Part shown: in pieces, positions 43,292 to 53,924 of the stretch
How positions within the stretch are numbered: the stretch's first letter is position 1
Layout of the letters: each line of letters opens with the position of its first letter
DNA from: an uncultured Desulfobacterales bacterium
GTDB lineage: Bacteria; Desulfobacterota; Desulfobacteria; Desulfobacterales; SpSt-501
Length of the DNA stretch: 64,000 nt
Reading direction: 5' to 3'
NCBI GenBank assembly: GCA_938048455.1
Contig: CALIUY010000021.1
Location: 1 to 64,000, forward strand
The notes under the pieces: model-generated
What the model saw: the letters and a program-made list of their open reading frames with translations, nothing else
Databases searched by the model: none
Told to the model about the DNA's origin: nothing
Made by a program: the position numbers and the translations under genes

Positions 43292-44758
43292 ATGGCCGAA
43301 ACCTTTCTGTTCTACGACATCGAAACCAGCGGACTGAGCCGCTCGCTCGACCAGATCCTCGAATTCGCCGCCATCCGCACCGACGACGGCCTCCGGGAGC
43401 TCGAACGGGTGCGGATCTCCGTGCGGCTTCGCCCCGACGTCATCCCCTCCCCCGCGGCGCTGCTGGTCCATCGCCTTCGGCCGGCGCGGCTCAGCGCCGG
43501 GATGGGCGAGTACGAAGCCATGCGCGCGATCCACGCGCTGCTCACCCGGCCGCAGACCTGGAGCCTGGGCTACAACTCGATCGGTTTCGACGACGAGTTC
43601 CTGCGCTTTTCCTTTTATCGCAACCTCCTTGCCCCCTACGAGCACCAGTCCGCCCGCGGCTGTCGCCGCCTCGATCTCTTCCCCGTGACTCTGCTCTACT
43701 GGCTCCAGGGAAGCGAACTGCTTTCCTGGCCGCACCCCGAGGGCCGCCTTTCGCTCCGGCTCGAGGATCTGGCCCGCGAAAACGCCCTTTCCGAGGACCG
43801 CGCCCACGATGCGCTGGGAGACGCCGCCGCCTGCCTGGCGCTCGCCCGACGCCTCGCCCGGAACCCGGCCCTGTGGCGTTGGGCGCTCGCGGCCTTCGAC
43901 CCCGCGGTCGACGCCCAACGCATGGAACGTCTGCCCGTCGCCTTCCGCAGCGCACGGGGAGAGCATCGCCTGGCGCTCCTCCTCTCGGGGGAGTGGGGCA
44001 CGCGAAGCGGCTTTCTCGCCCCCGTGCTCGGGATCGGCTTTTCCGAGCCTTACCCGCGGCAGAGCCTCTGGCTCCGGCTCGACCGCCCCCCCGGCGGGCC
44101 GGAGGAAGAGGAGGGCGGACTCAAAGCCGGCGCCTGGGTCACCCGCAAGCGCCTCGGCGAGCCGGGGATTCTGCTTCCGCCCGAGGAGCGCTTTCTCGAG
44201 CGGCTGGGCAAGGAGCGCCGCGGGCTTCTCGAGGAACATTTGGCCTGGCTTGCGGCGCATCCGGAAGCCTTCGTCGCGCTGATCGAACGCCATCGGGGGT
44301 TCCGTTACCCCCCCGTGCCGGATCTCGACCCCGACGCCGGTCTCTACCAGAACGGGTTTTTGCCGCGCTCCGACGAGGCGCTCTGCCGCGCCTTCCACGA
44401 AGCCCCTTGGGAGGAGCGACTCGCCCGGCTCGGGCGATTCTCAAGCCCCCAGGCCCGTCTCCTTGCGCGACGTCTGATCTTCCGCAACTTTCCGGAAGGC
44501 CTGCCGCCGGAGCTGGCGCGCGAAGCCGAGGAGCACCGGCGGAGCATCGCCCGCGGCCTCCCGGCGCGCGACCACACCGGCCGTACCCGTCGCACGCCGA
44601 ACGAGGCTCTCGCGGAAATCGAACGGCTCGAACGGGAGACGAAAACCGACGCCGAGGGCCGCGGGCTGCTGGACGAGCTGCGGCGGGAGATCCGGATTCG
44701 ATGGGGAAAGGAGCTTGCGTCCGCCGCGCCGGACCCTTACCCGGCGAGCGGCCGATGA
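43292..44758 (+). CDS. sbcB: exodeoxyribonuclease I
   Basis: 488 residues, similar to the ~475 of E. coli ExoI. DEDDh exonuclease motifs: D9-I-E11-T, GYNSIGFDDEFLR, and HDALGD. SH3-like and C-terminal helical domains follow (LYQNGFLPRSDEALCR). It digests single-stranded DNA 3' to 5' in recombination and repair. The ATG lacks a clear ribosome site. The stop overlaps the next start (ATGA), making it head of a seven-gene overlapping cluster whose other members are metabolic. Confidence 0.92.
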   Translation: MAETFLFYDIETSGLSRSLDQILEFAAIRTDDGLRELERVRISVRLRPDVIPSPAALLVHRLRPARLSAGMGEYEAMRAIHALLTRPQTWSLGYNSIGFDDEFLRFSFYRNLLAPYEHQSARGCRRLDLFPVTLLYWLQGSELLSWPHPEGRLSLRLEDLARENALSEDRAHDALGDAAACLALARRLARNPALWRWALAAFDPAVDAQRMERLPVAFRSARGEHRLALLLSGEWGTRSGFLAPVLGIGFSEPYPRQSLWLRLDRPPGGPEEEEGGLKAGAWVTRKRLGEPGILLPPEERFLERLGKERRGLLEEHLAWLAAHPEAFVALIERHRGFRYPPVPDLDPDAGLYQNGFLPRSDEALCRAFHEAPWEERLARLGRFSSPQARLLARRLIFRNFPEGLPPELAREAEEHRRSIARGLPARDHTGRTRRTPNEALAEIERLERETKTDAEGRGLLDELRREIRIRWGKELASAAPDPYPASGR

Positions 44759-45852
44759 CGGCCGTCCTTTCGGCTGCGGCCCTCGTTCTGCTCGCCGCAG
44801 GCGGCGGGACGATCGCCTTTCTTGCGGGCGCCGGCGCGGCGTTGCGCTGGGCGGCCGGCGCCGCCGCGGCGATGGCCGTCTTTCTTCTGCGCGGGGGCCG
44901 GCTGCTTGCGGCCGGACGGGGCCCCATCGGGGAGCCGCGAGGGCTGCACCTGGGGCCGGCGACGAGCTTGACCCTCGGCCGGGGGCTTCTCGTCTGCGGC
45001 CTCGCCGGATTCCTTTTCTGGATCCCGGCCGAGGAGACCGCGGCGGGGGCCCTCCGCTGGAGCCCGGGAGTCCTCTTCGGTCTGGCGGCCCTTCTCGATG
45101 CCGTCGACGGTGCGATCGCCCGTCGCCGCGGCGAGACCTCGGCCCTGGGCGCCGCTCTCGACACCGAGGCCGACGCCCTGGGGATTCTGCTCGCCGCTCT
45201 CGTGCTCGTCCACAGCGGGAAAGTACACCCCCTCTACGCGGCGACCGGCGTCGGGTACTATGCCCTGCGTCTGGCGGTCCGCCTGCGCGCCGCCCTCGGG
45301 CTTGCCCTCCATCCCGTGGCTCCCCGGCCCGGGGCGCGCCTCGTCGCCGGTTGCACGATGGCCTTTTCCACGGCCGCGCTGCTGCCGCTCTTCGACCCCC
45401 GGGCACTCGTCCCCGCTTCGCTCGGGGTGACCGCGGTGTTCCTGGCCGGATTGGCGACCGACTGGCTGGTCGTCATCGGCCGCGCCGACGCGCAGGGCCG
45501 CGCGCGCGGTCCGCGGCTCGCCTGGGCGCAACGCCTCGCGCACACGGCGGCTCCGCTCTTCGTCCGCCTTGCGCTCGCCGCATCGATGGCCGCCGCCTGC
45601 CTCTCCCCCTGCGCCGGAGCGGAAGCGCCGCAGAGGCTCGCTGCGGCCCTGCTCGCCCTTTTGGGCGCACTCGGCCTTGCGGCGCGCGGCGCGGCGGTGC
45701 TATTGAGCATTCTTGCCGCCCGGCTCGATGCTGTGGGGTGCATCGCGTTTGCACCGGTTGCGGCGGCCGCCGTCGCCTTGCTTCTGCTGGGGGCCGGACG
45801 GTGGCGGATCGCTCAGCCCGAAGACCGCTGGTTGCTGAAAGGCCGCCCATGA
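44755..45852 (+). CDS. CDP-alcohol phosphatidyltransferase-family membrane enzyme
   Basis: 365 residues, strongly hydrophobic with about nine or ten helices, longer than typical (~200-250) family members. The signature is complete: D118-G-x2-A-R-x8-G132-x3-D136-x3-D140. The family joins a CDP-activated lipid or polyol to an alcohol in the membrane. The extra helices on both sides are unusual. It overlaps sbcB and the RibD-like gene by four bases each. The substrate may be a product of the following pterin/riboflavin-like enzymes; inference. Confidence 0.85.
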   Translation: MTAVLSAAALVLLAAGGGTIAFLAGAGAALRWAAGAAAAMAVFLLRGGRLLAAGRGPIGEPRGLHLGPATSLTLGRGLLVCGLAGFLFWIPAEETAAGALRWSPGVLFGLAALLDAVDGAIARRRGETSALGAALDTEADALGILLAALVLVHSGKVHPLYAATGVGYYALRLAVRLRAALGLALHPVAPRPGARLVAGCTMAFSTAALLPLFDPRALVPASLGVTAVFLAGLATDWLVVIGRADAQGRARGPRLAWAQRLAHTAAPLFVRLALAASMAAACLSPCAGAEAPQRLAAALLALLGALGLAARGAAVLLSILAARLDAVGCIAFAPVAAAAVALLLLGAGRWRIAQPEDRWLLKGRP

Positions 45853-46631
45853 CCCCCGAGCGTTTCTCCCCTTCGGGCCCGTCCTCCGTTCCGGAGGATC
45901 CCGCGCTCGCGTCCCCGGTTCCCGAGCCGCTCCGTCGGCGGCTGGCACAGGCGCAAGCGTGGCGCGCCGCGCGGGGCCGTCCGTTTGTTTTGCTCACCTA
46001 CGCGCAGAGCCTCGACGGCAGCATCGCCGGGCCCCGCCGCGAGCGGGTCCGCCTGAGCGGCCCGCAGGCGATGCGTCTGACCCACGGCCTGCGCGAGCGC
46101 TGCGAGACGATCGTCGTGGGGATCGGCACCGTGCTCGCCGACGATCCCCGCCTCACCGTCAAACCGCCGGGGACTTCCGGGCCGCGGCCGATCGTGCTCG
46201 ACACGCATCTCCGAACCCCCCGGGAGGCACGCCTGTTGCGGCGAAGCGACGTCCGCCCGCTTCTGGTCCATAGCCCGCAGGTTCCGGAACGGAGGCGGCG
46301 CGAGATGAAGGCCGCGGGGGCCGAGCCCGTCTCTTGCCCGCTCGGTCCGGACGGGCGGATCGACGCGGGAGTCCTCCTCGAGCGGCTCGCCCGGGAGTCG
46401 GTCAACAGCGTCATGGTGGAGGGCGGGGCCCGCGTGATCACCTACTTCCTGCAGCACCGGCTCGCCGACTTCCTGCTGATTACGATCGCGCCGCGATTTC
46501 TCGGCGGACTTCCGGCCCTCGAAGAGTCCCCGGGGTCCGGGGGACTTGCGATCGAGTTTTCCGTTTCCGGCTTCGAGCGCCTCGGCGTCGACGCCGTCTT
46601 CTGGGCCGAGCCTTCGTGGGCGGGACGATGA
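45849..46631 (+). CDS. RibD C-terminal-type (dihydrofolate reductase-fold) reductase
   Basis: 260 residues. It has only the reductase domain of RibD, without the deaminase half. Family blocks: LTYAQSLDGSIAG, VVGIGTVLADDPRL, and MVEGGARVITYFLQHRLADFLLITIAPRFLGG. Relatives reduce the ribose of pyrimidine intermediates of riboflavin or archaeal deazaflavin/methanopterin synthesis using NADPH. No ribA, ribB or ribE is present here, so a dedicated pathway is more likely than ordinary riboflavin synthesis. Overlaps both neighbours (ATGA). Confidence 0.88.
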   Translation: MTPERFSPSGPSSVPEDPALASPVPEPLRRRLAQAQAWRAARGRPFVLLTYAQSLDGSIAGPRRERVRLSGPQAMRLTHGLRERCETIVVGIGTVLADDPRLTVKPPGTSGPRPIVLDTHLRTPREARLLRRSDVRPLLVHSPQVPERRRREMKAAGAEPVSCPLGPDGRIDAGVLLERLARESVNSVMVEGGARVITYFLQHRLADFLLITIAPRFLGGLPALEESPGSGGLAIEFSVSGFERLGVDAVFWAEPSWAGR

Positions 46632-47644
46632 AACGACGGGTGCTCCTCTTTGCCGCGCCGCGGCAGATCCGCATCGTCGAGGAGCCGCTCCCGGAGCCCT
46701 CCCCCGGAGAGGTCACGGTCGAAACGATGCTCTCGGCCGTAAGCCCGGGTACGGAGCGGCTCGTCTACCGCGGGGAGCTCCCTGCGGGTCTGCCCCTCGA
46801 CGATACGCTTCCGGCCCTTGCCGGCGGGGCCGTTTACCCCCTGCGCTACGGGTACGCTGCGGTCGGCCGCATCGTGGCCCGGGGATCGGGGGTTCCGGCC
46901 GGAGTGGAGGGAAGGTGGGTCTTCTGCTTCCACCCCCACGCCTCGCACCTGAACGTCCCCCTTGCCGAGGCCTTCCTCGTCCCGGAGGGGATCGACCCCC
47001 GGGACGCCGGTTTTCTGGCCACGATGGAGACCGCGCTCACCCTGGTCTGGGACGGCCGGCCGCTGGCCGGGGAAACGGCGCTCATTTTCGGCCAGGGGAT
47101 CGTGGGCCTGCTGACCGCCGCGCTGCTCGCCCGCCACCCCTTGGAGCGAGTGCTCACGGTGGACCCCCGGGCCCCGCGAAGGGAGCTCTCGCGGGAGGTC
47201 GGCGCGCACGCCAGCCTCACCCCCGACGAGCTTCCCGCTTATCTCGCGCGCGAAACCCGCGGGAGACTGGCCGATCTGGTCTTCGAGCTCTCGGGCGCGC
47301 CCGCCGTTTTGGGGGAGGCGATCGCCGCCTGCGGCTTCGGCGGACGCGTGGTCATCGGCTCCTGGTACGGAACGCGCCGGGCGGCGCTCGACTTCGGGGG
47401 GCGCTTCCACCGCAGCCGCATCCGGCTGATCGCCAGCCAGGTGAGCACCTTGCCCGCCCACGCCGCCTTGCGCTGGAACCGGAAACGACGCCGGGAGGCC
47501 TGCTGGGAATTCATCCGTGCCTTGCGACCCTCGCGCTTCATCGACCAGGAGATCCCCTTCGAGGCCGCGGCGGAGGCCTACGCGATGCTGGAGTCCGAGG
47601 CCCAAGCCCCGCTGCAGATCCTTTTCGCTTATCGGAGACCGTGA
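46628..47644 (+). CDS. MDR-family NAD(P)-dependent dehydrogenase (BchC-like)
   Basis: 338 residues. GroES-like N-terminal domain with LSAVSPGTERLVYRG, where classical zinc alcohol dehydrogenases have the catalytic Cys. The structural zinc Cys cluster is also absent. The Rossmann fold has LIFGQGIVGLL. It resembles BchC-type and other zinc-free MDR oxidoreductases. A secondary alcohol or hydroxyalkyl side chain is the expected substrate. Overlaps the RibD-type gene by four bases. Confidence 0.85.
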   Translation: MKRRVLLFAAPRQIRIVEEPLPEPSPGEVTVETMLSAVSPGTERLVYRGELPAGLPLDDTLPALAGGAVYPLRYGYAAVGRIVARGSGVPAGVEGRWVFCFHPHASHLNVPLAEAFLVPEGIDPRDAGFLATMETALTLVWDGRPLAGETALIFGQGIVGLLTAALLARHPLERVLTVDPRAPRRELSREVGAHASLTPDELPAYLARETRGRLADLVFELSGAPAVLGEAIAACGFGGRVVIGSWYGTRRAALDFGGRFHRSRIRLIASQVSTLPAHAALRWNRKRRREACWEFIRALRPSRFIDQEIPFEAAAEAYAMLESEAQAPLQILFAYRRP

Positions 47645-48024
47645 TGATGTATGCCGTCGGGGTGCAACGCGAGTTCATCGCCCGGCACGTCCTCGGCGGG
47701 GATGCCCCCGCCGCCGAGCGCGTGCCGCACGCCCACGCCTACCGGGTCGAATGCCGGGTCCGGGGTTCCGCTCTCGACGACCGGGGCTACCTCCTCGACC
47801 TCGACCGCCTCTCGGCCGCCCTCGAGGCGGTGATCGCCGGCCTGCGGGACCGCCTGCTGAACGAGTTGGAGGCGTTTCGGGGGTTGAACCCGAGCCTCGA
47901 GCATCTGGCCCGCATCGTCTGGGAAAGCCTGCGCGCTCGCGCGCGGCTTCCCCGGGGGCTCCGGCTTTCGGTCACCGTCTGGGAAAGCGCAACCGCCTGG
48001 GCCTCCTTCGCCGAAGACGGCTGA
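47644..48024 (+). CDS. 6-pyruvoyl-tetrahydropterin synthase homologue with altered active site
   Basis: 126 residues. ATG 47644 has GGAG six bases upstream; GTG 47641 and ATG 47647 are alternatives. Zinc ligands His15, His29 and His31 (EFIARH, PHAHAY) are kept, and a C-terminal Glu (VWESATAW). The catalytic Cys four residues before HxH is Glu25, as in PTPS-III-type enzymes. The Asp-His pair (LDHHYLN in QueD) is replaced (LRDRLLN). So it binds zinc and probably a pterin but should not do the classical QueD/PTPS reaction. Overlaps neighbours by one base on each side. Confidence 0.85.
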   Translation: MMYAVGVQREFIARHVLGGDAPAAERVPHAHAYRVECRVRGSALDDRGYLLDLDRLSAALEAVIAGLRDRLLNELEAFRGLNPSLEHLARIVWESLRARARLPRGLRLSVTVWESATAWASFAEDG

Positions 48025-49142
48025 TGGAGATCGCTTTTCTCATCCCCGGCCGCCTCGAGCCCCTGACCGGCGGCTCGCTCTACAACCGTTTCCTGGCCGA
48101 AGCGCTCGCCCGCCGGGGGCACCGCCTTCGCCTCTATCCCGTTCCCCTCCGCCCCCGCCTCCGGCTTTGGCTCGAAAATGTCCGGCCGGCGACCTGGCGC
48201 CGCTGTTCGCCGGAGAGGGGGGCGGTCGTGATCGTCGACGGCCTCATCCACGAAGGCCTTCTTCTCCCGCTCCGCATCGGCCGCCGGTCGGGGGGCGCCC
48301 GGATCGCGCTGCTCCACCAGCTCACCCCGGCTTCGCCCGAGGGGGAGGCCGGCCGCCGTTTCCGCGAGAGGATTTTTCTTGGCGGCATGAGCGGTGTTCT
48401 CTGCCCGGGAGAAATTCTCGCCGCGGAGATCACGCGCCGGACGCGCGGGCGACTTCCCGTCCACCCCGCCTCTCCGGGGGGCGACCGGCTCGGCCGGGCT
48501 CCGAACGAAGCGTTCATCCTTCGCCGCGCCCGAACGCCCGGGCCGCTTGAGCTGCTCTTCGTCGGCAACCTCTCGCCGGTCAAAGGGCTTCCCGCCCTGC
48601 TCTCCGCGCTCGCGGGCCTGCCGCCCCCTCTCTGGCGGCTCACCGTGGTGGGAAGCCTCTCTTTTGACCCGGCGGCCGCGCGCGCCGCACAGCAGACGGC
48701 CGACCGCTTCGGCCTGGGGGAGCGGGTACGCTTCCGCGGCGCCCTGAACGGGGCCGAGCTTGCACGGTGCTATGAGACCGCCCAGGTCTTCGCCATGCCC
48801 TACGCGCGCGAGAGCTTCGGCATCGCCGCGCTCGAGGCCATGGCTTTCGGGCTGCCGGTGATCGGCTCGGCCGCGGGCGGGGTGCGGGAATTCGTGCGCC
48901 ACGGCGAAAACGGGTTTCTCATCCCCCCGGGGGATCTCGCCGGCTGCCGGCGCGCGGTCGCGATCCTGGCGCAGGACCGCCGCCGGCTCGCCGACCTGGG
49001 GTCGCAGGCCTTTCGCGATTTTCTCCGGCGACCCGGTTGGCGCGATTCCCTCGCGGGAGCCTGCCGCTTCCTGGAAACGTGGGCAACGCGCCCTCCCGGG
49101 CGGAAGCCGGGCCCGGCCCGGGCAAGAGGGCATTGCCGATGA
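48024..49142 (+). CDS. GT4-family glycosyltransferase
   Basis: 372 residues, starting in a TGATG overlap. GT-B fold: N-terminal MEIAFLIPGRLEPLTGGSLYNRFLAEAL, donor-binding C-terminal half with FVGNLSPVKGLPALLSAL and the E-x7-E motif ESFGIAALE, followed by MAFGLPVIGSAAGGVREFV. Retaining transfer from a nucleotide sugar is expected. No membrane helix is seen. Its partner genes suggest a small membrane-bound acceptor rather than O-antigen. Confidence 0.9.
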   Translation: MEIAFLIPGRLEPLTGGSLYNRFLAEALARRGHRLRLYPVPLRPRLRLWLENVRPATWRRCSPERGAVVIVDGLIHEGLLLPLRIGRRSGGARIALLHQLTPASPEGEAGRRFRERIFLGGMSGVLCPGEILAAEITRRTRGRLPVHPASPGGDRLGRAPNEAFILRRARTPGPLELLFVGNLSPVKGLPALLSALAGLPPPLWRLTVVGSLSFDPAAARAAQQTADRFGLGERVRFRGALNGAELARCYETAQVFAMPYARESFGIAALEAMAFGLPVIGSAAGGVREFVRHGENGFLIPPGDLAGCRRAVAILAQDRRRLADLGSQAFRDFLRRPGWRDSLAGACRFLETWATRPPGRKPGPARARGHCR

Positions 49143-50818
49143 CCGGAACCCGGAAAAGGAGCCGGCCCTTCGCGCTCCTGCGCACCGTCCTCGCCTTCGG
49201 CTTTCTGAACGCGCTGCTTTCGCTTTCGTTTCCCGCCGAATCCTGGACGCCGGCCGCGTGGCTGCGCCTGTCCCCCGATGCCCTGATTCTGACGGCGATC
49301 CTCGCCGTTTCCCACCGTCTCGGGGCGCGCGGCCGCCGCCTGCGCCTCGGGGCGCTGGCGGCCCTGGTGCTGGGGCTGCGGCTGTTTCAGAGCGCCGAGG
49401 CGGCGATCCCGCTTTTTTTCCACCGCGCCTTCCATCTTGCCATGGACCTTCCCCGGCTCGCCGACTTCTTCCGCCTCCTCACGCTCACCCGGACCCCGAC
49501 CGAGACGGCCGGTCTCGCCCTCGCGGCGGCCGGAGCGGGGATCGGAATCGCTCTCGTTCTCTACCGGGCGCTCGCGACGCTCGAGGCCGGATCGGCAGGA
49601 CGGGGGCGGCGGCCGGGCTCAGGGGCCGCGAGGATCGTTCTCGGGGGAAGCCTCGCCGCCGCGCTCTTCGCCGCCGCGGATCCAGGCCTCATCGCCCCGG
49701 CCGCGGCTCCTCGGCTGGCGGCGGAGATCGTCCGATGGCTGCGGATGGATGCGATCCGCTCCGAGTGGAACGAGCGCTTTGTCGAAGCGGCGGCGCGCGC
49801 GGCGGCGCTGCGTCCCGATTTCTCGGGACTCGGGCGGGAAAGCGTGTTCGTGGTCTTTGTCGAATCCTACGGGGCGAACGCTCTGTTCGACCCGCGGATC
49901 GCCGGCGAAGGGGTCCCCGCGCTCAAGCGCCTCGAAGCCGATCTCGCGGCGGCGGGATTCGGCCTCGCCAGCACCCTGCGCCGTTCGCCGACCGCGGGCG
50001 GCGGTTCCTGGTTGGCGCACGCCACGCTCGCCTCGGGCGTGCGCATCGACAACCAGCTCGCCCACGACCTGCTGCTCGCCTCGCCGCTTGTCCCGCTGGC
50101 GGCTTACTTTCGGGAAGCGGGCTACCGCACGCTTCGCGCCGCCCCCGGCACCCGCTGGCCCGCGGCCGAGGCGGCTTTTTATCGTTTCGAGCAGACGCGG
50201 ATCGCCTCCGGGTTCGGTTACCGCGGCCCCGGCTTCGGGTTTTCCCCCGTGCCGGATCAGTTCGTGCTGGAGTGGATCGGCCGTTACACGGCGGGCGGAG
50301 GACCGTTCTTCGTGGAGGTGATCCTGACCGGAAGCCACACCCCCTTCGATCGCCGGGCCCCGTATCTCGAAGACTGGGAGGCGCTCGGCGACGGATCCGT
50401 CTACTACGGAGGAGCGGCGCAGGAGGCGCAAGGGGGGATCTTCGGCGCCCGCGGAGCCCATGAGGCCTACCGCACCCTGCTGCTCGATTCGCTTGCGGCC
50501 GTGGCCGGCTTCGCCCGCCGCCACCTGCGGGGAGAGGAGCTTCTGATCGTCCTGGGGGACCACGCTCCCCCCATCGAGATCCCCTCCGCGGTGGAGGCCT
50601 TCGCCGTCCCGGTTCACCTCGTGACGCGCAACCCCGCCGCGCTCGCGGAGTTCCTCCGCCGGGGTTTCCGGCCGGGAATCCTCCCCGAGCCTCACTCCGC
50701 GCCGCCGGGTCTCGAGACCCTTTTTTGGGATCTGATCGCGGGCTTCAACGCCAGTCGATCTCCCGAAAGGGAAGTTGCAGGCGATCGGCAAGCGAGCGCA
50801 GCTCCTCCTCCAGGGTGA
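49139..50818 (+). CDS. membrane-anchored sulfatase/phosphatase-fold protein (LtaS-like)
   Basis: 559 residues. About four to five N-terminal membrane helices (to ~180) are followed by an extracytoplasmic alkaline-phosphatase-superfamily domain. The domain has VFVVFVESYGANAL (metal ligand Glu), RSPTAGGGSWLAHATLASGV (likely nucleophile region), GSHTPF and LGDHAPP (metal Asp/His). Relatives move phosphoglycerol or phosphoethanolamine groups onto glycolipids or cleave phosphates/sulfates. Last of the overlapping cluster. Its final 74 bases overlap the end of the convergent M16 gene. Confidence 0.82.
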   Translation: MTGTRKRSRPFALLRTVLAFGFLNALLSLSFPAESWTPAAWLRLSPDALILTAILAVSHRLGARGRRLRLGALAALVLGLRLFQSAEAAIPLFFHRAFHLAMDLPRLADFFRLLTLTRTPTETAGLALAAAGAGIGIALVLYRALATLEAGSAGRGRRPGSGAARIVLGGSLAAALFAAADPGLIAPAAAPRLAAEIVRWLRMDAIRSEWNERFVEAAARAAALRPDFSGLGRESVFVVFVESYGANALFDPRIAGEGVPALKRLEADLAAAGFGLASTLRRSPTAGGGSWLAHATLASGVRIDNQLAHDLLLASPLVPLAAYFREAGYRTLRAAPGTRWPAAEAAFYRFEQTRIASGFGYRGPGFGFSPVPDQFVLEWIGRYTAGGGPFFVEVILTGSHTPFDRRAPYLEDWEALGDGSVYYGGAAQEAQGGIFGARGAHEAYRTLLLDSLAAVAGFARRHLRGEELLIVLGDHAPPIEIPSAVEAFAVPVHLVTRNPAALAEFLRRGFRPGILPEPHSAPPGLETLFWDLIAGFNASRSPEREVAGDRQASAAPPPG

Positions 50819-53786
50819 CCTTGCGGCCGCCGGTCCCGCTGCCGGGCGTCGCCTTATCGGCCACGACGAACACCTGGACCCGCCGCGGGTCGAAAAAGAG
50901 CGCGGCGAGCTCCTGCAGTTCCTCGGCCGTAGCGTTGAAGTAGCTCTCCTGAATGCGGGCCAGGGTGTCGGCGGGCTCTCCGCGCAAGTCGAAGCGCGCG
51001 TGGGCCCGCGCGAGGTCATACGGGGAGCTCACGTGGAAGACGAAGCTGTTCAGCGCATCCAACCGCTTGAGCTCGACCTCCTCCCGGGGTACCCCGCGCT
51101 TGAGCTCCTCCATGAGGCGAAGGGTCTCCTCGATCGCCGCCGCCATCCGGTCGCTGCGGGCGCCGATCCTCCCTACGGCCATCCCCGCCTGGAGCCGCGA
51201 GGCCGGATAAAAGCCTGCGGAGTAGACGTAGCCCAGGTCGTCGCGCAGGCGCGTATAAACCAGGGAGTCGTTGCCGCCGAAAATTTCCGTGAGCAACCCG
51301 AGCTTCCAAAAACGGGGATCCGAACGCGGAATCGTGCGCAGCACAAGCGCCGCCTGCGCCTGGACTTGGCCCGGCTTGTGCACGAGGGCGAGAACCGGCG
51401 GGGTCGTCCCCGGCGGGGGGAGGGCGTTGCGGCCGGAACCGGCCGGGCGGAAGGCCTGGACCAGGCGGCTCAGACCCCGCTCCAGGCCCTCCTCGGAGAT
51501 ATCCCCCGCCGCGGCGATGACCAGGTTGCCGGCGGTGAGCCGGTCGCGCAGGAAAACCCGAAGATCCTCGGCCGAAACCCGGGGCAGGGTCTGGAGCGCC
51601 CGAAGCGGGTCTCGACCGTAAGGGTGCCCGGCGAAATGCCAGATCATCGCCTCGCGCAGGGCCACGGCGGAGGCATCTTCACCCCGGCGCCGCAGGGCGT
51701 CCAGGATCCGCCGCCGGGCCGACTCGAGGATACGCGCATCGAAGCCCGGCCGTGCGAGCACTTCGGCCAAAAGCTCGATTCCCTTCTCCCAATCGGCGGC
51801 TAACGTCGAGAGATGCAGCGAGGACTCCTCCAGCCCGAAGGAGACCTCCAGGCGGATCGCATGGTCATCGAGGACGGCCGCGAGCTCCTCCGGCGGCCGG
51901 GCCTCGGTGCCGCCTTCGACCAGGGTCTCCTCGAGGAGATCGGTCAACCCGATGAGCCCCTCGGGCTCGTCCACCGCGCCGGTGCGCGACAGCAGCACCA
52001 GGTCGACGACCGGCAGTTCGGGATCCGGCAGGAAAACCACCGGCACGCCGCCGACCGTGAGCCGCCGCGGCGGCGGGTAGTCGATGCGCCGCGGTTCGCG
52101 CCGGAAGGAAAGCGGATGCTTCCAGCCTTCGGGGGTGGGATAGCGCGAGTGGTTTTCGAAGTCCGGCGGCTCGATCGCCCGCCGGCCCGCCGCGGCGCTC
52201 GGGATCGAGCGCTCCTCGCGGTACTCCTCGGGCGGGCGCGCGGCCGTCCCCCCGGGGATCACGTAAACCGTGCTGCGACGGTCGCGCCGCAGAACCTCGG
52301 CCGCCACCCGGCGGATGTCCTCCGCCGTCACGGCCTCCATGCGGGCGAGGTAGTCCTGGACGTAGCGCCATCCCGCCTGGACCTCGAGGGCGGCGAGCAG
52401 GCCGGCGATGGCGCCGTTGCTGCGCAGCCGGTCGAGAAAATCGCGGCGGTTGAGCCTTTTCATCCGCGAAAGTTCCTCCTCGGAGATCGGCTCGTCGCGA
52501 ATCCGCTCGATCTCGGCGAGCAACCGCTCCTCGAGTTCCTCGCAGGCCCGCAGGTACGCCGCGCGCCGTTTCTCCTCGGAGGAAGCCTGCAGAGCCGCCT
52601 CGGGCTCGACGGGGGTTGCCCCGAGCACGAACAGGCCGGCGTAGCGCCGATCCGGGTTCATCGCCCAGGCCTCGGCCGCCAGCCCCGTCTCGACCAGGCG
52701 GCGGGTGAGCCGGGCGCTCCGTCCCTGGCTGAGCAGCAGCGACAGGGCGTCCAGGGCGTAGAAATCGGGGTGCGTCATGCGCGGGCCGTGGAAGGCGATG
52801 CGCACGAGCGGAGTCCGCGCGCCCTCGAGAAAGCGAACGCTCCGGCGCGGTCCGGCCTGGGGCGGCTCGGCGGTGACGATCTCCGGAGCGCGGGTCCCGG
52901 CGGGGTAACGTCCGAAATAGAGGGCCGCGAGCCGCTGGACCTCTTCCCGCCGGACATCGCCGACGACGACGCAGACGGCGTTGGCGGGCCGGTAGTAGCG
53001 CTCGTGGAAGGCCATGGCGTCGCGGGTGCCGAGACGCTCGATGTCGGCGAGCCAGCCGATCACGGGGTTGCGGTAGGGGTGCGCCTGGTAAGCGAGGGCG
53101 TGCAGGTCGAGCCAGGCCGCCCCGCCGGGGTCGTTGGCGTAGCGGAAGGCCCACTCGCGCTTGACGACCTCCTTTTCCACGTAGAACTCGCGCCAGGCCG
53201 GCTCGAAGACCTGTTCGCTCACGATCGAAAACCACTGCTCGAGCATGTCCGCGGGCACGGAGGCGACGTACTGGGTCTGATCCGTGTTCGTGAAGGCGTT
53301 CACGCCCACGGCGCCGTTTTTGCCGAGTTGGGTGGAAAAGACCTGCGGGATGTAGAGGCCCTGGGCCTCGAGACGCAGCCGCTCCATTTCTTCGCCCAGC
53401 CGACGGATGCGCTCGCGATCGGGATGGCGGCGGGCCTCCTCGGCGCGGAGCTCCTCGAAGAGCGCATCGATTCGCTCCTGGATCTCGGCGTCGCGACGGA
53501 AGTCGCGCGAGCCGAAGTTGCGCGTACCCTTGAAGAGCATGTGCTCGACCAAATGCGCCAGCCCCGTCCGCCCGGCGTCCTCGAGGGCGGAGCCGGCGCG
53601 GATCGCCAGCCGTACCGCGACCTGGGGCGTGGTGTGCCGCTCGACGACGAGAAAGAGCATGCCGTTCGGCAGCGTGAATTCCTGCACGGCAAGCCCGGGA
53701 AGCGCCTCCGTCCCCGCGGCGGCGCCGAGCGCGCCGACGAGAATCAAAAGCACCCCCAGAAAGCGGCGCCACAGCTTCCGCATCAT
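50745..53786 (-). CDS. periplasmic M16 metalloprotease, two fused M16 units
   Basis: 1013 residues, start MMRKLW behind GGGAGG, with a Sec signal peptide (RRFLGVLLILVGALGAAAG). The first unit carries the zinc motif H78-L-V-E81-H82 (HLVEHMLFKGT). The second (from about residue 560: RLTVGGVPVVFLPDPELPVVD) lacks an HxxEH and probably shapes the chamber. Charged insert at ~95-140 (RRDAEIQERIDALFEELRAEE). Pitrilysin-like peptide degradation outside the cytoplasm is expected. Convergent overlap with the sulfatase-fold gene. Confidence 0.92.
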   Translation of the reverse strand: MMRKLWRRFLGVLLILVGALGAAAGTEALPGLAVQEFTLPNGMLFLVVERHTTPQVAVRLAIRAGSALEDAGRTGLAHLVEHMLFKGTRNFGSRDFRRDAEIQERIDALFEELRAEEARRHPDRERIRRLGEEMERLRLEAQGLYIPQVFSTQLGKNGAVGVNAFTNTDQTQYVASVPADMLEQWFSIVSEQVFEPAWREFYVEKEVVKREWAFRYANDPGGAAWLDLHALAYQAHPYRNPVIGWLADIERLGTRDAMAFHERYYRPANAVCVVVGDVRREEVQRLAALYFGRYPAGTRAPEIVTAEPPQAGPRRSVRFLEGARTPLVRIAFHGPRMTHPDFYALDALSLLLSQGRSARLTRRLVETGLAAEAWAMNPDRRYAGLFVLGATPVEPEAALQASSEEKRRAAYLRACEELEERLLAEIERIRDEPISEEELSRMKRLNRRDFLDRLRSNGAIAGLLAALEVQAGWRYVQDYLARMEAVTAEDIRRVAAEVLRRDRRSTVYVIPGGTAARPPEEYREERSIPSAAAGRRAIEPPDFENHSRYPTPEGWKHPLSFRREPRRIDYPPPRRLTVGGVPVVFLPDPELPVVDLVLLSRTGAVDEPEGLIGLTDLLEETLVEGGTEARPPEELAAVLDDHAIRLEVSFGLEESSLHLSTLAADWEKGIELLAEVLARPGFDARILESARRRILDALRRRGEDASAVALREAMIWHFAGHPYGRDPLRALQTLPRVSAEDLRVFLRDRLTAGNLVIAAAGDISEEGLERGLSRLVQAFRPAGSGRNALPPPGTTPPVLALVHKPGQVQAQAALVLRTIPRSDPRFWKLGLLTEIFGGNDSLVYTRLRDDLGYVYSAGFYPASRLQAGMAVGRIGARSDRMAAAIEETLRLMEELKRGVPREEVELKRLDALNSFVFHVSSPYDLARAHARFDLRGEPADTLARIQESYFNATAEELQELAALFFDPRRVQVFVVADKATPGSGTGGRKVTLEEELRSLADRLQLPFREIDWR

Positions 53787-53924
53787 CGGAACCTCCCGTG
53801 CGCGGCGGGATCCGTTGCCGCGCGCATGATCGGCCAAGCTAGGAATCTCCGGCGGAAATCGCAAGCCGCGGCCCGCCGTTCCCCGTCCGGCGGGGAGGCG
53901 GCTTTCCGGCCGCGGCGGCCGGAC

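Follow-up and report, generated by a model that had tools for sequence, protein, structure and literature searches.

A conserved gene cluster in an uncultured Desulfobacterales bacterium that may divert an early riboflavin intermediate into a glycosylated pterin-type compound

The window analysed here is a 64,000-nucleotide stretch of DNA (positions 1 to 64,000 of contig CALIUY010000021.1, assembly GCA_938048455.1) from the 3.38-Mb genome of an uncultured Desulfobacterales bacterium. Seven open reading frames (ORFs) follow each other on the plus strand between positions 43292 and 50818. Six of them, encoding a CDP-alcohol phosphotransferase (CDP-AP), a RibD-type reductase, a dehydrogenase of the MDR family, a homologue of 6-pyruvoyl-tetrahydropterin synthase (PTPS), a GT4 glycosyltransferase and an LtaS-like membrane enzyme, form a real and conserved unit, a conclusion well supported by the survey of neighbourhoods described below. 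The gene content of this unit suggests a dedicated pathway, in which the intermediate from the first committed step of riboflavin synthesis would be turned into a pterin-type compound that is glycosylated and processed at the membrane; we favour this pathway tentatively and at somewhat less than an even chance. The seven ORFs are as follows.

43292-44758, plus strand: exonuclease I-like protein (RNase_T and Exonuc_X-T_C above the Pfam cut-off)
44755-45852, plus strand: CDP-AP of 365 amino acids with extra C-terminal helices (PF01066, E=1.2e-12)
45849-46631, plus strand: RibD-type reductase domain without the deaminase domain (PF01872, E=5e-41)
46628-47644, plus strand: zinc-free MDR dehydrogenase of BchC-like architecture (PF00107, ADH_zinc_N)
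47641-48024, plus strand: variant PTPS homologue (PF01242, E=5e-24)
48024-49142, plus strand: GT4 glycosyltransferase with an MshA/BshA-like C-terminal half (PF00534, Glycos_transf_1, E=6.5e-32)
49139-50818, plus strand: membrane enzyme of the alkaline-phosphatase superfamily, LtaS/GacH/EptA type, about 559 amino acids (predicted structure)

All seven abut or overlap their neighbours at six tight junctions, and each was located where the original prediction, made from the sequence alone, had placed it. The enzyme families named there were also recovered, six by passing the Pfam cut-off and the LtaS-like one by structural match. The annotated start of the PTPS gene is GTG 47641, while its homologues begin with MYxVxV, pointing to ATG 47647 as the probable start; the junction between MDR and PTPS may then be free of overlap.

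Conservation and composition of the cluster

The search for the MDR protein covered relatives first and then the GTDB species, each represented by one genome, and the neighbourhoods of 97 MDR genes were compared by all-against-all clustering of the surrounding ORFs together with profile searches. Relatives of the MDR protein were detected in at least 563 stretches of the species genomes. Among the matches listed, the hosts were Desulfobacterota, Chloroflexota, haloarchaea, a Bathyarchaeote, Pseudomonadales and Legionella, and the closest relative with a named record was a metagenome-assembled genome (MAG) of 'Desulfatibacillum sp.' (MDR 73% identical). Many bacterial neighbours of the window MDR in the species scan belonged to Desulfobacterota/Deltaproteobacteria. 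The gene was found in five of the six other genomes of the same genus that were searched, and it is patchy within the class (16 of 291). Plasmid-borne clusters were observed in Haloarcula, Natronorubrum, Methylosinus, Neorhizobium, Palleronia, Rhizobium, Thiodictyon and Streptomyces.

Neighbours were counted at those 50 loci for which the sequence extended 6 kb to either side of the MDR gene (full-flank loci). The gene was accompanied by GT4 (46 loci), PTPS (44), RibD (36), CDP-AP (28), a methyltransferase (25), GTP cyclohydrolase (GCH) II (22), an LPG-synthase-type membrane protein (17) and the LtaS-like protein (13). The usual order is CDP-AP, LPG-synthase-type protein, in some cases a small membrane protein, GCH II, RibD, MDR, PTPS, GT4 and methyltransferase. 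In Streptomyces fungicidicus the cluster comprises CDP-AP, MDR, PTPS, GT4, methyltransferase, creatininase and GCH II, and in the isolate Thermanaerothrix daxensis it contains GCH II, RibD, MDR, PTPS, GT4 and methyltransferase. At the locus of Legionella sp. PC1000 (L120:7673-9001), a fusion of GCH II and RibD reductase is accompanied by MDR, PTPS and GT4; CDP-AP and the LtaS-like gene were not found within its 9-kb flanks. Pairwise identities correlate between the protein families of the cluster (r from 0.25 to 0.82, mostly at least 0.55), a correlation to which shared ancestry contributes. The survey of neighbourhoods, which had been set beforehand as a check, thus revealed co-occurrence of these genes across phyla, in both bacteria and archaea.

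The first ORF, which the original prediction had counted as a member, could not be kept in this unit. The exonuclease I gene was near the core at only 7 of the 97 loci, all of them in Desulfobacterota, and its product scored 188 bits against the NCBIfam ExoI model, below the cut-off of 260. It is probably a local passenger.

Some additional genes adjoin the cluster in particular lineages. In Caldilineaceae, a molybdopterin oxidoreductase similar to MsrP/YedY is encoded directly upstream of a GCH II-RibD fusion (L113:6752-7414, L061:2520-3167 and L071); the assignment to PF00174 was checked in L113, and more conserved genes precede it. A YceI-like protein occurs in clusters of Pseudomonadales (L105:6926-7546; also L108, L086 and L106), and cytochrome b in those of Rhizobium and Thiodictyon (L135:11528-12085, L136:11026-11565). 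The latter two are repeated findings, representing redox or isoprenoid-binding neighbours of some clusters.

Predicted substrate and first two reactions

The presence of a GTP cyclohydrolase gene in related clusters had also been set as a check, and in addition to GCH II at the full-flank loci counted above, GCH III was identified at one archaeal locus. The cluster GCH II is encoded on the same strand as RibD, directly upstream of it, and GCH II and the RibD reductase form one polypeptide in 9 of 44 cases, Legionella and a Bathyarchaeote among them; in the Legionella fusion protein both domains exceed the Pfam cut-off. Each of 44 cluster GCH II sequences retains the zinc cysteines, Tyr105 and the catalytic Arg128. 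Compared with these 44, the GCH II of Streptomyces fungicidicus carries Met at the position of Tyr105, and a creatininase-family gene adjoins it. In Natrarchaeobaculum, the gene for a GCH III (PF05165, 293 bits) shares 4 bases with the MDR gene, and in Haloarcula a creatininase-family gene lies near the cluster. SCO6655, the S. coelicolor GCH II with the Tyr-to-Met change, reportedly stops at the formylated nucleotide, and archaeal GCH III likewise stops there. BrbF, an enzyme of the creatininase family, removes the formyl group of this nucleotide (PMC9478397). The use of GCH II, GCH III or Tyr-to-Met GCH II plus creatininase points to one common intermediate, 2,5-diamino-6-ribosylamino-4(3H)-pyrimidinone 5'-phosphate. 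That this GTP-derived diaminopyrimidine ribotide, the first riboflavin intermediate, would be the entry point is well supported by the gene content of the clusters.

The closest solved relatives of the window RibD are 2azn (E=1e-46) and 6p8c (E=9e-45), both pyrimidine ribotide reductases of the archaeal type, and reductases of the 2-amino substrate are included among its nearest solved matches. Archaeal-type reductases act on the 2-amino substrate, as the names of the solved matches also suggest. Against the curated equivalog TIGR01508 the window protein scored 118.7 bits, under the cut-off of 186.5. In the tree, the cluster RibDs, that of the window among them, are separated from the canonical RibDs of these lineages, including the genome's own (support 83/89 for the cluster group and 96/78 for the canonical group). 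Since no deaminase domain is present, the 2-amino group would be kept, a feature that distinguishes pterins from flavins.

The housekeeping copies are located elsewhere. Canonical RibD, RibA and RibH are encoded outside the window, some 43-46 kb downstream of the cluster on this contig, and the genome also carries FolE2, HPPK and a QueD-type PTPS; GCH I was not found in it. Six clustered genomes, five from Chloroflexota and one from a Bathyarchaeote, gave no lumazine synthase (PF00885) in the Pfam search. The five Chloroflexota include one isolate, Thermanaerothrix daxensis, and one single-contig chromosome; incompleteness of MAGs could account for one or two such genomes, hardly for six. In each of the six a single GCH II was found, which is the one located in the cluster, and the sole strong RibD_C match likewise belongs to the cluster. 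Genomes devoid of lumazine synthase, in which the cluster holds the only copy of GCH II, indicate that the cluster does not serve riboflavin synthesis. The features expected of a riboflavin operon were missing, as the window RibD consists of the reductase only and RibH was absent from these six genomes. The independence of the cluster from the riboflavin, folate and queuosine pathways is thus well supported, as judged from gene content. With the early riboflavin pathway of archaea and bacteria (GCH II, or GCH III plus formamidase, followed by pyrimidine ribotide reductase) it has the entry enzymes in common, and it may share the first two or three reactions. The two differ in that the window RibD lacks the deaminase, that genomes with the cluster can lack lumazine synthase, and that MDR, PTPS and GT4 follow.

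Later enzymes of the cluster

The MDR protein had been predicted to be zinc-free, and both the Cys and the His ligands of the catalytic zinc are indeed replaced, position 40 being P, A, S, R, H or T and position 76 being Tyr in all 58 sequences. Tyr74, Tyr76, His104 and Glu134 are invariant in the same 58 sequences. The nearest solved MDR proteins are dehydrogenases of polyols or secondary alcohols (sorbitol, butanediol and galactitol-1-phosphate dehydrogenases). The best NCBIfam match is BchC, a precedent for the oxidation of a secondary alcohol by an MDR enzyme of this type; the window protein differs in scoring 76 bits against a cut-off of 291 and in being encoded outside a chlorophyll cluster.

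The PTPS homologue retains the features of its superfamily, namely the fold, the three zinc-binding histidines and the Glu by which the 2-amino-4-oxo ring of the pterin is anchored. It is altered as predicted, because the catalytic Cys is replaced by Glu25, invariant in 58 sequences, and the Asp-His dyad (D70-H71) by Arg-Asp in most of 79 sequences. Against QueD (TIGR03367) it scored 47 bits, below the cut-off of 89, and both the Cys of the CxxxHGH motif and the Asp-His dyad are absent. The Plasmodium PTPS-III enzymes that replace FolB (2a0s/1y13) likewise carry Glu for the catalytic Cys, or adjoining it, together with three zinc histidines and the anchoring Glu. In contrast to these, the window protein has the Arg-Asp dyad, and the host synthesizes folate with its own HPPK, FolE2 and a second PTPS.

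The predicted structure of the PTPS homologue (pLDDT 96) gave S. coelicolor SCO6650 (PDB 3d7j) as its best fold match (TM 0.91), which was also the best PDB profile match, and a close homologue of SCO6650 is encoded in the S. fungicidicus cluster. SCO6650 differs from the window protein in belonging to a subtype of Streptomyces and Alphaproteobacteria, whose members have lost both the third His and the Glu that takes the place of the catalytic Cys. A search of the open-licence literature yielded neither a pathway nor a product for SCO6650. In the alphaproteobacterial and Streptomyces proteins of this kind (L041, L039, L040 and PDB 3d7j), HGAT is present instead of HxH, and they are possibly a second subtype that acts differently.

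The catalytic motif of CDP-AP, DAVDGAIARRRGETSALGAALDTEAD, is intact, being an exact match to D(x)2DG(x)2AR(x)8G(x)3D(x)3D, and the motif is present in 44 of 46 cluster homologues. The best, weak NCBIfam match is archaetidylinositol-phosphate synthase. The idea that the extra C-terminal helices are a fused copy of the small membrane protein of the cluster was rejected, as the profile of the latter matched no CDP-AP.

The LtaS-like protein gave no match in Pfam or PDB sequence searches. Its AlphaFold model (pLDDT 83), with long N-terminal helices, was aligned by VIA-align with S. aureus LtaS 2w5q (Z 21.6, rmsd 4.3 over 271 residues) and with the phosphoglycerol transferase GacH (Z 20.7). With LtaS, GacH and EptA it shares membrane helices, a catalytic domain of the alkaline-phosphatase type and the metal-site motifs ESYG, SHxPF and GDHxP, which are invariant or nearly so; it differs in an identity of only about 12% in the aligned region, and in the lack of a Pfam match. 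By its predicted fold the last ORF is a membrane phosphotransferase of the LtaS/EptA type. The gene is near the cluster at 16 of 34 Desulfobacterota loci and also in the Rhizobium and Thiodictyon clusters. Together, CDP-AP, the LPG-synthase-type protein and the LtaS-like protein suggest a lipid-linked product that would be moved across the membrane and modified outside.

Two other genes of related function were noted. An acyltransferase of the PlsC type (PF01553), a neighbour of lipid type, lies in or beside the cluster at L054:6084-7046 and at nine other Chloroflexota loci. A membrane glucosyltransferase of the mdoH type adjoins the MDR gene in two Alphaproteobacteria, at which no CDP-AP was seen (L039:6067-7869, L040:6079-7992).

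Candidate pathway and its alternatives

The candidate pathway consists of six steps. A GCH II, encoded in the cluster itself in many relatives and represented by the housekeeping RibA in this genus, would convert GTP to 2,5-diamino-6-ribosylamino-4(3H)-pyrimidinone 5'-phosphate (step 1), and the RibD reductase would turn the ribosyl into a ribityl chain with retention of the 2-amino group (step 2). MDR would then oxidise a secondary hydroxyl, most simply the C2'-OH, and the 5-amino group would close on the ketone to give a 7,8-dihydropterin (step 3). This pair of reduction and oxidation would replace the Amadori step of GCH I and give the same carbon skeleton. The side chain would be the target of the Glu-type PTPS, which may cleave it in a retro-aldol reaction to give 6-hydroxymethyl-dihydropterin (step 4), GT4 would add a sugar and, in many lineages, the methyltransferase a methyl group (step 5), and CDP-AP, the LPG-synthase-type protein and the LtaS-like phosphotransferase would attach the unit to a membrane lipid or process it with one (step 6). 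Steps 1 and 2 are supported by the fusion, by gene replacement and by homology; we infer steps 3 to 6, including the attachment to lipid. The original prediction of a glycosylated, membrane-handled unit derived from a pterin or pyrimidine is thus strengthened by co-occurrence across phyla and by GTP cyclohydrolase within clusters, except for its inclusion of exonuclease I.

Several observations weigh against this pathway. The strongest objection is that FolE2 of the host, which yields dihydroneopterin triphosphate, and HPPK make plain dihydroneopterin redundant, and the true product must therefore differ from it. Zinc-less MDR enzymes are often reductases, and the PTPS homologue, having lost the Asp-His dyad, is not a standard PTPS-III. 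The membrane genes are absent from some clusters, partly from short contigs. GCH II is present in only 1 of 34 Desulfobacterota clusters; the genus of the window probably draws its substrate from the housekeeping RibA, because the genome has a separate RibA and Desulfobacterota clusters nearly always lack GCH II.

Among the alternatives, a soluble pterin glycoside similar to cyanopterin or limipterin, serving light protection, signalling or as a tetrahydropterin cofactor, is an unlikely but serious one, for which the membrane genes would be for export or mere neighbours. Cyanopterin is 6-hydroxymethylpterin with a 4-O-methylglucuronyl-galactoside (PMC3546692), a structure that matches PTPS(Glu), GT4 and methyltransferase well, and several clusters, such as those of Methylosinus and Neorhizobium, show no CDP-AP. 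The cyanobacterial pteridine glycosyltransferase PgtA likewise acts on 6-hydroxymethylpterin, which receives sugar and methyl; cyanopterin is, however, made from GCH I, and the same paper describes no route by GCH II, RibD and MDR, nor CDP-alcohol or LtaS-type genes (PMC3546692). Other known pterin glycosides also begin with GCH I. Furthermore, CDP-AP is present at more than half of the full-flank loci and on plasmids of Streptomyces, Rhizobium, Thiodictyon and haloarchaea, and the LtaS-like and LPG-synthase-type genes recur across phyla.

It is rather improbable that the pathway stays at the level of a pyrimidine or yields another heterocycle, similar to toxoflavin or a deazapurine, with PTPS and MDR remodelling the ribityl side chain and no pterin being formed. 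In toxoflavin synthesis, too, a dedicated GCH II and an enzyme similar to RibD act first and a methyltransferase takes part, and the catalytic residues of the cluster PTPS are unlike those of the canonical class. The fold and pterin-anchoring Glu of this PTPS are nevertheless kept, and genes specific to toxoflavin were not seen.

A remodelled riboflavin, folate or queuosine operon for an ordinary vitamin or tRNA pathway is very improbable: every early enzyme is homologous to Rib or Que proteins, but housekeeping copies are encoded elsewhere in the genome, lumazine synthase is absent from six clustered genomes, and both the deaminase domain of RibD and the catalytic Cys of QueD are absent. Chance or gene density may be dismissed almost entirely, for although start/stop overlaps are common in compact GC-rich genomes and exonuclease I resembles such a passenger, the survey refuted this for the core, the same families being neighbours in bacteria (Chloroflexota, Desulfobacterota, Gamma- and Alphaproteobacteria, Streptomyces) as well as in archaea (haloarchaea and Bathyarchaeota) and GCH II being fused to RibD.

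S. coelicolor work on SCO6650 and SCO6655 is said to have noticed parts of this cluster. No description of the cluster, of its gene combination or of pterin lipids was found in the open-licence literature, which is weak evidence of absence. According to a 2026 review, GCH I is the start of most biological pterins (PMC13259868). A pterin as the product of the diversion pathway would contradict the rule that GCH I is the start of biological pterins, and a lipid-linked product would represent a new class of membrane lipid. The more far-reaching proposal, a second pterin route free of GCH I with the pterin as the glycosylated head group of a membrane lipid, is doubtful at present; the head group would perhaps be redox-active, since genes for cytochrome b, YceI and the molybdopterin oxidoreductase adjoin some clusters. 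The occurrence of a core of five to nine genes in hundreds of species, ranging from Streptomyces to haloarchaea, suggests that the metabolite is a common one. As the first substrate can be read from the genes, each step of the pathway can be tested in turn. The pathway would also account for many annotations, probably wrong, as '6-carboxytetrahydropterin synthase', 'RibD family' and 'zinc-binding alcohol dehydrogenase'.

Downstream of the cluster, a gene similar to M16-type metalloproteases (50745-53864, minus strand) is convergent with the LtaS-like gene, their 3' ends overlapping by at most 74 bases.

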